Shown: positions 17,201 through 58,500 of the stretch, one piece after another
Layout: the number at the start of each line of letters is the position of its first letter
Position numbering within the stretch: position 1 is the first letter of the stretch
Assembly: GCA_017654935.2 (NCBI GenBank)
Contig: CM065682.1
Location: 34,623,349 to 34,687,348, forward strand
Length of the DNA stretch: 64,000 bases
Reading direction: 5' to 3'
Origin: Phymorhynchus buccinoides
Taxonomy: Eukaryota; Mollusca; Gastropoda; Neogastropoda; Raphitomidae
Position numbers and translations under genes: made by a program
The notes under the pieces: model-generated
The model's input: the letters and a program-made list of their open reading frames with translations, nothing else
Databases searched by the model: none
Told to the model about the DNA's origin: nothing

Positions 17201-20200
17201 TCTTTTAAGTAAAATAAATGTACCATGCAAAACAGAGCGCTGGTTAAATTGTTCTGATATTAATTAATACTAGTAATGTTGATGTTTATTATTACAATGC
17301 TAGTACTGATGAAGACAATCATCATGATTAGAAAATAATAGATGTCTATGCACTGTATGGTACCTTTTCGGTACATAAAATGTTTAAATACTTTTAAACA
17401 AAATGGATATAAGAGATTTGTCATCCCACTGCCTTATCCCAAGCTGTAGCGTTGATAACTGTGACGATAGGGGTGGTGGTAGGGGTGGTGGTGGAGGAGG
17501 GGGGGGAGATGCTGCGGTTTGTGTGAGCTTGGGTTCAGTTGCGTGAATGTTCTATTTTAATATTTGAGCTGTGATCTTATTTATTCACTGTTGCGTGCCA
17601 CCACAAATGTATATCAATGTTTTTTGGACAATAAATTGTGTGACTTGTGACTGTGACTTGTGATAACCTTTCATCAAAGTGTAGTATGACATTATGTTTG
17701 TGTGTTCAGAGCGTTATGAGGGCTATGCATTCAGCAAAGACAGTTACCGGCCTGTCACACCTCACAGTTGATAACTGTGACGATAACCTTTCACCAAAGT
17801 GTAGTATGACATTATGTTTGTGTGTTCAGAGCGTTATGAGGGCTATGCATTCAGCAAAGACAGTTACCGGCCTGTCACACCTCACAGTTGATAACTGTGA
17901 TGATAACCTTTCACCAAAGTGTAGTATGACATTATGTTTGTGTGTTCAGAGCGTTATGAGGGCTATGCATTCAGCAAAGACAGTTACCGGCCTGTCACAC
18001 CTCACAGTTGATAACTGTGATGATAACCTTTCACCAAAGTGTAGTATGACATTATGTTTGTGTGTTCAGAGCGTTATGAGGGCTATGCATTCAGCAAAGA
18101 CAGTTACCGGCCTGTCACACCTCACAGTTGATAACTGTGATGATAACCTTTCACCAAAGTGTAGTATGACATTATGTTTGTGTGTTCAGAGCGTTATGAG
18201 GGCTATGCATTCAGCAAAGACAGTTACCGGCCTGTCACACCTCACAGTTGATAACTGTGACGATAACCTTTCACCAAAGTGTAGTATGACATTATGTTTG
18301 TGTGTTCAGAGCGTTATGAGGGCTATGCATTCAGCAAAGACAGTTACCGGCCTGTCACACCTCACAGTTGATAACTGTGATGATAACCTTTCACCAAAGT
18401 GTAGTATGACATTATGTTTGTGTGTTCAGAGCGTTATGAGGGCTATGCATTCAGCAAAGACAGTTACCGGCCTGTCACACCTCACAGTTGATAACTGTGA
18501 TGATAACCTTTCACCAAAGTATAGTATGACATTATGTTTGTGTGTTCAGAGCGTTATGAGGGCTATGCATTCAGCAAAGACAGTTACCGGCCTGTCACAC
18601 CTCACAGTCCCATGTTTGCTGTCGACTGTGAAATGGTATGCTTTTATATTTTACCCATTATTTATAGATTATACTGATATGTAATAGTAGTAGCGTAATA
18701 GGGCTAGAAGTGGGCCTCTCGGCCCTTTTACGCCCTTTCTTGATTGTTTCATTTGATTAAGTTTCACAATGATTGCGCAAACCTAAGCTAAACTAGTCTT
18801 AATTAATTTATAATTTTTTTGGAATGGACGTTCATTTTTAATCATAACAAAATTTGAAAGCTCTTATCATATTAGGATCTTGGTCCAGAAGATATTTTAA
18901 AGTTTTAATATTAGGTGCCTGTTTGATGTGTGTTTTACCCTAAAAACACAGCATTTTCTCAGCAACCAACTTTGTTTCCTGTCAAAGTAGGAAAGAAACA
19001 AAAGACACTGATATGAAATATAATGATGTCCATGTTAAAGTTTTAATTTATTTCACGTCTCTTGTAGTTTAAGTTTGTGACCTATCTTATGGTGTTATTT
19101 CACACACATGCGCACATCCATGTACTCGTACACATGTACACTGAATCCTTCCCACCTATACCCAGTGATGTACCGAGGATCGAAAAGTGATAGGACAAAC
19201 TGTCCTGAGATAAGAGAAATCAATAGGACAATGTCCTGGGTCTTGCAGAAATCAATAAGAGGAAGCGTGCCAGTATTAAAATTTTAACAAACATATGTCC
19301 TGACAGGGGAGAACATAATAGGACATTTTCAATTTTAATTGGTCAATGTCCTATGACCGGTGCATCAATGATGTTATACCCTTCCTCAGTTCTTAAATGT
19401 TTACAATTACACAGAACATACACATACACAAAACCAAATATAATTTGTTACACTCATATCCACTTGTGCAACTGCAAGCATGCATGGACATACGCTCACC
19501 CACACACATGCATGCGTAGGCACACACACACACACACACACACACACACACACACACACACACACACACACACACACACACTTCCTCTCTGTTTCATCTA
19601 CTTGGTTAACTTCACATTAAAACACTTTTTTGTGTTGAAAACATACTCACGCTCACAAGTTCAACTATTCACTAACTCAGATGCTCACGCTCACTAGTTC
19701 AACTATTCACTAACTCAGATGCTTATGCTCTCTCACTTGCGCTTTCTTTTTTTCCTCTCACCCGATCTTTGACTCGCTCACTCACTTACAAACTCACACA
19801 CTCCCTGACTGTCTCACTCTTGCACACAGCTCACCTACCACCCCTGATTCTGTGCACCGTGTGAGACCAGCCAGAAGGCCTTTGAGCTGACCAGGGTGTC
19901 TTAAATGTTTAAGCTCTCTCACTCATTGTCGCACTCATTCACAAACGCTGCTCACTTCACTCCCCTGTTTCTGTGCGCAGTGTGAGACCAGCCAGAAGGC
20001 CTTTGAGCTGACCAGGGTGTCTTAAATGTTTAAGCTCTCTCACTCATTGACAAACGCTGCTCACTTCACTCCCCTGTTTCTGTACGCAGTGTGAGACCAG
20101 CCAGAAGGCCTTTGAGCTGACCAGGGTGTCTGTCTTATTAAGCTCTCTCACTCATTGTCTCACTCATTCACAAACGCTGCTCACTTCACTCCCCTGTTTC

Positions 20201-55500: not shown

Positions 55501-58500
55501 GGACTTATAGATTTTGTTGTTGTAGATGAGGACAACTGGGGACTTACCAACGTTGGCCACATAGATTTTGTTGTTGTAGATGAGGACAACTGGGGACTTA
55601 CAGACATAGATTTTGTTGTTGTAGATGAGGACAACTGGGGACTTACCGACATTGGCCATAGATTTTGTTGTTGTAGATGAGGACAACAGGGGACTTACCG
55701 ACGTTGGCCACATAGATTTTGTTGTTGTAGACGAGGACCAGGGTGGCAGTGGTGCCCCCTGACAACTGCTGCTCCAGCTGCTGCAGCTTGGTGTAGACAT
55801 CGGGATACTTGGTGCACGCCTCATATCCACTGATCCCCTGAAAATCAACCATCAGTACATCAGTAGAAACTACTTTCAAGCACATGAAAATGTTCCCTTA
55901 ATGCCATTTTTGATATAAAATCTAGTCAAGCAAAACTGGCAATGAATTTCATTCAACTGAACGTTAACTGTACATTTTCTTCATTAAAAGCTCAGTTGAT
56001 TGAAATTCACAAACTGTTTCACTTCACTAGACTGGACAATCTGGCAGGCTGTCTATTGCACATTAGAATGTGAGCCATAAGCTCATGCTTGTTGTACCCA
56101 AAGAACTTATACTTCTTCACGCACACAACATTTTATAATAAACTTTGAGTTAAACTAACAGAAACTGTTGATAAGAAACTAAAGCATACAGCATGATTGC
56201 AAGCTGATAGAATCTAGCATAATGCCACTGCCAACAAGGATATGAAAGCAGGCAATGATAATGATTCACTCAACGGACTACCACCAAACAGCCATAACCT
56301 GAAGCTTAACAAGTTGATGGATGAAAATTTTATCAATGAGTTTCTTATCTGACACTTACAACATTGGTTTAAATAATTTTTATTGACCAACAACACATAC
56401 ATCCAAATGAAATAAACAAAAATAATGACAGCAACAAGCTTGAAGCTTAGAGTGTGCCTACTCAAATATAGTCTCTAATATGGCAGCTGGCAAACACAGA
56501 CAAAAGCATATTAACATTAATACAACATTGCCATATATGAACTCATTAACTCTTCTACTACCGTCGGCGGGTTGACCCGCCGGTTTACCGTATACCGTTG
56601 CTAGCCACGGGCGGGTTTGACCGCCAGATACTAGGGAAACCCTGGTGTCCCCCTTTGCGCTATTTATATCAAGTGACATCACATCCTTTACTTCCGTGAC
56701 ATGCGCAGTTCGCGCACGGAAAGCACAATCTTCCGCCATCTTCATTTGTAGGCTAAATTTTGTGATTTTCGTTGCGTTTTCGACGATGGAAACTTACAAC
56801 TTTTGGCATGAACCTCTACAAGATGGCGATAGTGCCAACGAAGCATTTATTGTGGAAAAAGTGGCAGAATCTGAACTTAGGCGAATCAAAAAGAGCATCG
56901 AAAGTGTTGAAACGATCTTGGGTTTGCAGCAGCAGATCGATACAGGTAAATTTAGTGATGATTCGAGCAAGTATTTTTTTTAATGAATTTTTAAAGTGAG
57001 TGTGTGCGAAAATCAGTGCAGCGGCAAAAATTACTTGGTTCGCAACAGTAAACAGTCTAAGTAATACTTGGTAGTAGAAGAGTTAAAGACAGAAAAGACA
57101 GAAGTTGATGCATAAAGCATCAAACAAATTGTGGTAATTTTTTTTTCATTTTGACATAATTCATTTGACTTTTACAATAAAACACTTCATTCTTTCACGT
57201 TTAGTTGCATGAGCTCCAAAGACACAAGAGGTTGGAGTGGCACAAAGTAATGTGCACTGCATGAATCCTAGAGGCTAGCCACTGGTCAATGCCTGCCACA
57301 TTCAGGAAACACACCATAGTGAAAAATGCAAACTATTTCTACAATTATGAAATACTTGTATTAAGATCAAAATTCCCTCACATCAGGCAGCCTGTCCTGC
57401 GTTGTGGTCTTCTCCGCCAACAGACCGTCTGTGGACTCAAAGTACACATTCTCCACCGCCATGAAGGCCTGCCCACAGGGTCAAGGCATCATGAGAAGCA
57501 ACAACACGCTATCTAAGGAATATCTATTACACACAGGTAGCCCACAGAGCCAGTGATTCATATGGAATAAACATCAACTTTCAATGAAATGAATTAAACA
57601 TCAAATTTCCCATATATCCAGTAAATCAAGATAAACTACTGTGTAAACACAACCACAATAATATCTATTTAGGCAAAGCCTAGTCAATTTCAAGAGTGTT
57701 TTTAAAAAAAAAGCTGTCACCAGAAAACAAGGAAAGACACTTTTATATGAACACACTATGTGGGAGGGATCTCATTATTTAAACAAAGGAGTCCAGAAGG
57801 ATGTGCAAAGAAGGGAATGCTCCACAAAAATTATAAAATAATGCATAAACACTAGCACACACACACACACACACACACACACACACACACACACACACAC
57901 GCACACACACACACAGTGACACACACACACAGACACTCACTCACTGACAATGACACACAAACACACACTGTCACATTCAGACCATCCCCAAAGAATGAAT
58001 GTTATATCGTCATGATAAATTCAAAACATTCACATTTCTAAAAAATCTAATTGTCGGTGAACCATGAAGCACAGAATATATCAAAGATGCAGAACTACCT
58101 GTCGCAGCACTTCCCGGATTTCAGCGTCAGTGGTTTTGTTCTGCAGCTGTCCCAGCAGCAGTTCTGCCGGCATCCTCTGTGCGGCAAAGTCAGCCACCCT
58201 GCTGCCGTTATGGCCGTCAAATACACCGTACAGGTAGCAGCTGCTGTCATGTCTAAAAGCGCAAAAAGAATCAAAACAACAATACAATAATAAAGTCGAC
58301 AGAAAGGGAAAAAAGTACATAGTGTTTGTTCCAATTTGCAAAAGTTAAAAAAGTGTTTGAAGGATTGTCTGATTATTCCTTATAATCTCTGTAGCATAAT
58401 GCCATAAAACTATGCATAGCGATTCAAAATTGGAGAAAAAATTAAATGAGAAGTAAGATTGTCTGTGCAAACAAAGCAAAACAAAAACACACTAACAAAG

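Follow-up and report, generated by a model that had tools for sequence, protein, structure and literature searches.

In the marine snail Phymorhynchus buccinoides (Neogastropoda; Raphitomidae), five exon–intron boundaries in two neighbouring and oppositely transcribed genes, REXO5 and TAB1, lie inside tandem arrays. The arrays were studied in a stretch of 64,000 nucleotides (assembly GCA_017654935.2, contig CM065682.1, positions 34,623,349 to 34,687,348 of the forward strand), which is referred to below as the window. The repeated unit holds the exon–intron boundary in all five arrays, with three acceptors (REXO5 exons 7, 8 and 9) and two donors (TAB1 exons 5 and 6) affected. By these structural features the arrays would be classed as mirage-type minisatellites. 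The explanation that we favour, at a probability of roughly three in four, is that template switching or microhomology duplicated DNA locally, in a genome rich in arrays, and that the duplications then grew through unequal exchange, the products being kept close to neutral by exon definition.

Arrays were taken from the output of Tandem Repeats Finder (TRF) at a period of 20 or more and a score of 150 or more, with simple-repeat overlaps excluded. Eight arrays in the window were retained, five of which include a splice site (Table 1). Together with alignment of the copies, this bears out the original prediction of arrays at these five boundaries, with copy numbers of 8, 5 and 20 for REXO5 exons 7, 8 and 9 and of 5 and 12 for TAB1 exons 5 and 6, or 50 copies in all.

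Table 1. Positions in the window of the boundary arrays, the exons they adjoin and related repeats.
Feature	Positions	Strand	Basis
Array A: 120-bp unit (about 61 nt of intron end and 59 nt of exon 7 start), 8 copies	17661..18608	+	TRF, copy alignment
Array B: 5 copies of exon 8 start (42 nt, identical) and intron end	19860..20371	+	TRF, copy alignment
Array C: 106/104-bp unit (about 34 nt of intron end and about 72 nt of exon 9 start), 20 copies	21346..23462	+	TRF, copy alignment
Array D: TAB1 exon 5 end and donor, about 5 copies, spacings 52, 45, 54, 39	55507..55738	-	TRF, copy alignment
Array E: 28-bp unit (16 nt of exon 6 end and 12 nt of intron start), 12 copies	53205..53540	-	TRF, copy alignment
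REXO5 exon 7 (RYEGYAFSKDSYRPVTPHSPMFAVDCEM)	18550..18635	+	Splice model, alignment to 11 homologues
REXO5 exon 8	20330..20448	+	Splice model, homologue alignment
REXO5 exon 9, acceptor TTAG followed by TTTCAGCGG	23381..23519	+	Nearest relatives NYLT[PR]FSGMT; 803-aa model
TAB1 exon 5	55699..55837	-	tblastn of Batillaria and termite proteins; human TAB1 structures
TAB1 exon 6	53525..53753	-	tblastn, human TAB1 structures, gene model
Likely template of the array A junction insert (GTTGATAACTGTGACGATA)	17451..17469	+	About 200 nt upstream of the array, same intron
75-bp x 12.7 array, not at a splice site	34551..35485	n/a	TRF; starts 109 nt past the REXO5 stop codon
41-bp x 11.7 array, intergenic, for comparison	37044..37523	n/a	TRF
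49-bp x 5 array, intergenic, for comparison	37765..38008	n/a	TRF

The AG or GT dinucleotide is kept in 48 of the 50 copies, and both exceptions are the copy most distant from the exon body (REXO5 exon 8 and TAB1 exon 5). In array A the AG is intact in all eight copies, the decoy acceptors lying at 17710, 17830 and so on to 18430 and the real one at 18550. The exon 8 starts of array B are found at 19860 (AG lost), 19981, 20090, 20210 and 20330 (the real start), at spacings of 121, 109, 120 and 120 nt. All 20 copies of array C retain AG, with the real exon start at 23381. For the two donor arrays, four copies of array D carry GT and the fifth AT (real exon end 55699), and GT is intact in 12 of 12 copies of array E (real exon end 53525). 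Over the core of the site (acceptors −20 to +6, donors −3 to +6), 31 of the 45 decoys match the real site exactly. The exonic parts of arrays A and B show no difference among copies; array E varies at 5 of 16 positions of its exon-derived part and at 0 of 12 of its intron part, and in array C both parts vary.

Exon joins and gene identity were checked against homologues, REXO5 by alignment to 11 of them and TAB1 by tblastn with Batillaria and termite proteins. In all five arrays the conserved protein comes from the copy touching the exon body, which would make the exon-adjacent copies the splice sites in use. The original prediction held that the outermost copy toward the exon body is the one joining in phase; this copy does restore the conserved protein, but it is not the only one to join, as two further exon 8 acceptors are in frame and free of stops. 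Of the 44 decoy choices tested, 42 run into an early stop, namely 7/7 for REXO5 exon 7, 2/4 for exon 8 and 19/19 for exon 9, and 3/3 and 11/11 for TAB1 exons 5 and 6; for TAB1 exon 5 this count covers the decoys with GT, and the TAB1 model is partial. All eight copies of exon 7 share one phase, but seven of them meet a stop at once. Restoration of the protein by the exon-adjacent copy and the early stops of the decoys fit the earlier suggestion that selection tolerates only growth on the intron side.

That same one-sided growth had also been offered as a clue to mechanism. However, any tandem duplication over a boundary leaves one copy on the exon body, and for this reason arrays will appear to grow on the intron side, their outer copy joining in phase. 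As long as the protein stays the same, the exon-body copy is the one used and the remaining copies count as intron, so that no directional process is needed. The pattern follows automatically from protein-preserving duplication over a splice site and, by this logical argument rather than by any measurement, is no independent evidence for directed growth.

The arrays may be compared with several known systems. They are most like the mirages of amphioxus (Adh, the globins BflGb6 and BflGb9, troponin C and PGBD5; PMC3087553, PMC3902484), in which tandem repeats also span boundaries at acceptors and donors, units measure 10 to about 160 bp and many copies retain AG or GT. For the amphioxus genes, reverse transcription PCR suggests that regular splicing is undisturbed, and the copy number of the BflGb6 repeat differed between two haplotypes, with Adh3 and other loci cited too (PMC3087553); PGBD5 and troponin C are further lancelet cases, and the PGBD5 repeats were confirmed by new sequence data (PMC3902484). 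The snail arrays differ from these in their gastropod host, in reaching 20 copies, in the presence of five in two adjacent genes and in being known from DNA alone.

Human 844ins68 in CBS is a tandem duplication of the intron 7/exon 8 junction, of which the machinery strongly prefers the more distal copy (PMC2630376; the wording there is ‘donor’, although the CBS junction consists of an intron end and an exon start). It resembles the snail arrays as a two-copy case of a duplicated boundary, and is unlike them in having a single extra copy of 68 bp and in being a population polymorphism. The variable internal tandem repeats of human segmental duplications are likewise minisatellite expansions, sometimes at an exon–intron boundary; half of those surveyed, however, are in coding sequence, and the boundary cases may form novel introns, with the repeat often also retained in transcripts (PMC2812944), whereas in the snail existing introns appear to lengthen.

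Intron gain of the Rogers type, as in potato RdRp (PMC4974935), shares with the snail arrays a tandem duplication that carries splice signals and is spliced out, but it makes a new intron. The snail arrays sit in introns, the protein of the adjoining exons shows no gain when aligned with homologues, and on this protein alignment the arrays look like extensions of introns that already existed. A tandem arrangement is also seen in the dual-specific splice sites of repeat genes such as UBC (PMC10809524), where a single sequence within a coding array acts as donor and acceptor alike, in contrast to the snail arrays, each of which multiplies one kind of site. Among the literature matches listed, in the parts available, there was no case of a boundary array in a mollusc; no claim of a first report in molluscs is made, subscription papers having been mostly outside the search. 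At the level of sequence, the arrays extend to a mollusc a structure described in lancelets, with related human forms in CBS 844ins68 and the boundary variable repeats. As many as 20 acceptors stand in tandem before a single exon (REXO5 exon 9). Genes of this kind offer a natural test of spliceosomal choice between nearly identical sites, and they are hazards for gene annotation.

Each array would have been founded by one short tandem duplication over a splice site, through microhomology-mediated end joining or template switching. Microhomology and templated inserts are signs of such joining or switching. A 19-nt stretch at the copy junctions of array A agrees with the likely template at 19 of 19 nt in two of the seven junctions and at 18 of 19 in the other five; in a control, 3000 random 20-mers from positions 9000–17000 of the window gave a longest match of 15 nt to the 560 nt upstream of each. 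As judged by eye, this insert bridges the exon and intron parts via GT and GATA, which it shares with them; also by eye, exon and intron have 7 nt of microhomology in array C (GCTGTTG) and 2–4 nt in arrays D and E. No one place was accepted as the source of the array B filler, whose 13-nt matches fall at two places in the window.

The arrays would then have been enlarged by unequal exchange or slippage, to which the variants common to blocks of copies in array C and the alternation of TATCTC and TGCCTC units in array E point. Exon definition would select the copy beside the exon body, which gives the shortest exon, and the other copies would leave as intron; mis-spliced RNA would mostly meet a stop codon and be degraded. 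With decoys spliced out and mis-spliced RNA degraded, the duplications would be nearly invisible to selection and could therefore persist. The founding and growth steps carry signs in the sequence; the splicing step and its neutrality we infer.

The alternative that survives best is that splice boundaries are mutational hot spots, where duplications would be seeded by fork stalling, R-loops or breaks that accompany transcription or splicing. We consider it unlikely, although the clustering in the window speaks for it. Against the 38 splice sites of the window (the span of array B being taken as 19800–20373 in overlap tests), the observed five of eight arrays compares with 0.30 expected when founding units are placed uniformly (P = 2e-6) and with 1.9 when whole array footprints are placed (P = 0.017); from the density of arrays elsewhere in the genome, 0.38 would be expected (P = 5e-5). 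These P values are post hoc, since the window was chosen for the pattern and the pattern was seen before testing. The amphioxus cases, in which several genes carry the same class of array (PMC3087553, PMC3902484), would also agree with a hot spot.

The sample from elsewhere in the genome consisted of 20 spaced 10-kb stretches (94,898 of 200,000 bases being N) and of a further 40 kb next to two genes identified in those stretches (within it, L022 and L023 are N in part). It contains 17 arrays in 105,102 readable bases, or one per 6.2 kb, compared with eight in 63.5 kb of the window; given this similar density, the window is ordinary in its array content. To locate exons in the sample, codon usage was scored after training on REXO5 and TAB1, and 21 splice sites were set by eye, nine in NRDE2, eight in two GSTO-like genes and four in a TXNDC15-like gene. 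By a uniform test, a local copy crosses the boundary at five of the 38 window sites, at one of nine in NRDE2 and at none of 12 in the three other genes.

In an uncollapsed control, the non-low-complexity noncoding positions with a local copy numbered 61/379 in the window, 58/378 in the joined stretch C9 and 22/375 in stretch C1. The pooled 6/59 splice sites thus equal the outside background of 80/753 positions, without excess, which speaks against a hot spot; this control overstates the background of founding events, however, because every copy of an array is counted. The copy-collapsed test is the one relied on, and in it the excess survives, in favour of a hot spot. For the pooled 59 sites, P = 0.031 at 75% identity (6/59, reach 1500), 0.0025 at 85% (6/59), 0.011 at 90% (4/59) and 0.0003 at 95% (4/59), with a full span of 0.0003–0.05; for the window only, P ranges from 0.001 to 0.026. 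Outside the window, the single site of 21 with such a copy is not above background (P = 0.11 to 0.62).

The window therefore shows a boundary excess; the independent sample, at 21 sites, is too small to decide for or against this excess or to rule out targeting. The claim that boundary clustering goes beyond coincidence holds for the window itself (P from 2e-6 to 0.03 according to the null, post hoc). The concentration in REXO5 and TAB1 would be due in part to chance and to the window having been picked post hoc, and in part to a genuine excess of uncertain size.

Some observations weigh against the duplication-and-tolerance account that we favour. Purely intronic arrays above the score cut are absent from the two gene bodies, against 4.8 expected at genome density (P = 0.009), an absence that speaks for a hot spot and that chance plus tolerance do not explain well. 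The deficit weakens to P = 0.05 if a 38-bp x 2.2 repeat in REXO5 intron 7 (19646–19730), whose TRF score of 149 is one short of the cut of 150, is counted as an intronic array. The excess at boundaries also peaks for the most identical duplications: when 95% identity is required, 4/59 sites have a copy, compared with 0.5% of positions. The assignment of the used splice sites to the exon-adjacent copies comes from protein conservation alone, and the exon 8 acceptors at 20090 and 20210, which would add 80 and 40 aa, join in frame without a stop.

A trigger common to the five boundaries is not apparent. A consistent G-rich skew of the non-template strand was not found, the GC skew of the coding strand being +0.06, −0.20, +0.42, −0.25 and −0.07 for arrays A to E, and strong G-richness is seen in array C alone. 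A common DNA hairpin or fold was likewise rejected: among the ten strands the strongest z was −2.19 (plus strand of array E), the others lying between −1.60 and +0.14. The varying sign of the skew and the ordinary folding of the units argue against one common structural trigger, and no motif common to the arrays was noticed on inspection of the copy junctions. The earlier proposal of a process tied to R-loops or splice sites finds no support in these tests, and the junctions look like generic products of microhomology or template switching.

Duplications away from splice sites point in the same direction. An array lies 3′ of REXO5 (the 75-bp array of Table 1, probably within the 3′ untranslated region), and a 97-bp x 19 array (L020 3814–5644) crosses the C-terminal codons of the apparent last coding exon of NRDE2. 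NRDE2 also has an independent boundary duplication, the end of an exon and its donor being repeated once in the next intron (L023 7700–7837 and 7966–8078, equal to 17700–17837 and 17966–18078 of C9). Duplication of coding sequence is therefore confined neither to REXO5 and TAB1 nor to splice sites. A broader proposal, that boundaries are a preferred birthplace of minisatellites in this lineage through duplication linked to transcription or splicing, that mirages are general in large, repeat-rich invertebrate genomes and that decoys feed later intron and isoform evolution, appears to us as unlikely as the hot spot.

Positive selection for the arrays, by which multiplied sites would strengthen or regulate splicing or give poison or in-frame isoforms, is highly improbable. 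The intact sites of 48 of the 50 copies, the two open in-frame copies of exon 8 and the identical exonic parts of arrays A and B could be taken in its support, but the constraint is inconsistent, the exon part varying and the intron part being constant in array E and both varying in array C, and recent homogenisation accounts for the identity equally well. Selection on the exon-derived parts of copies was rejected on the same inconsistency among arrays. An assembly artefact, with repeats collapsed, expanded or chimeric, is also very hard to credit, for although a gap of 500 N lies at 51001–51500, there are five distinct units with variant copies in every array and sensible junctions, the assembly otherwise yields a complete REXO5, and the PGBD5 repeats of amphioxus were upheld by new sequence data (PMC3902484).

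The splice model and homologue alignment give REXO5 14 exons on the + strand (8198–34442) and a complete reading frame of 803 aa. A REXO5 query gave identities of 66% (an unnamed protein), 64% (Nucella lapillus) and 52% (Littorina saxatilis), which point to a caenogastropod, probably near the neogastropods. The acceptor of exon 9 was set 6 nt upstream of the obvious one, restoring FS, because the nearest relatives read NYLT[PR]FSGMT. Use of the exon 8 acceptors at 20090 and 20210 is predicted to give isoforms with one or two added 40-residue repeats inside the exonuclease domain. TAB1, on the − strand, is represented by a partial model of six exons (here numbered 2–7; 58899–52362) encoding a stretch of 313 aa, and its identity is backed by a Batillaria protein (72%) and by human TAB1 structures (E about 4e-53). 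In tblastn searches with the homologues used here, no C-terminal exons of TAB1 past exon 7 were found in the window (34443–52361, a region that includes the 500-N gap).

For the genes sampled outside the window, the NRDE2 exon with the duplicated donor matches Pfam NRDE-2 (PF08424) above cut-off (E = 1.5e-10). The exons in L020 are presumed from their position to belong to NRDE2, the L020 exon that was tested having no Pfam match. The names GSTO and TXNDC15 are likewise provisional; in Pfam the thioredoxin domain is supported and the GST match is below cut-off. At L020 6000–6087, past a repeat-like stretch, there is a degenerate further 97-bp copy with another stop, and the C-terminal tail of NRDE2 may be altered.

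No RNA gene or tRNA was found in the window with Rfam at gathering scores or with ARAGORN. REXO5 intron 9 contains two long, GC-rich open reading frames on the + strand, at 24297–26468 (724 aa) and 26790–29882 (1031 aa), which run from stop to stop and lie 321 nt apart; neither has a Pfam match at an E of 0.001 or less, and the pair is perhaps a retroelement. A reverse transcriptase (RVT_1, E = 5e-23) is located on the − strand between REXO5 and TAB1, at 48852–50117. A further coding-like reading frame on the − strand, at 63182–63376, is without a Pfam match and may resemble a short-chain dehydrogenase.

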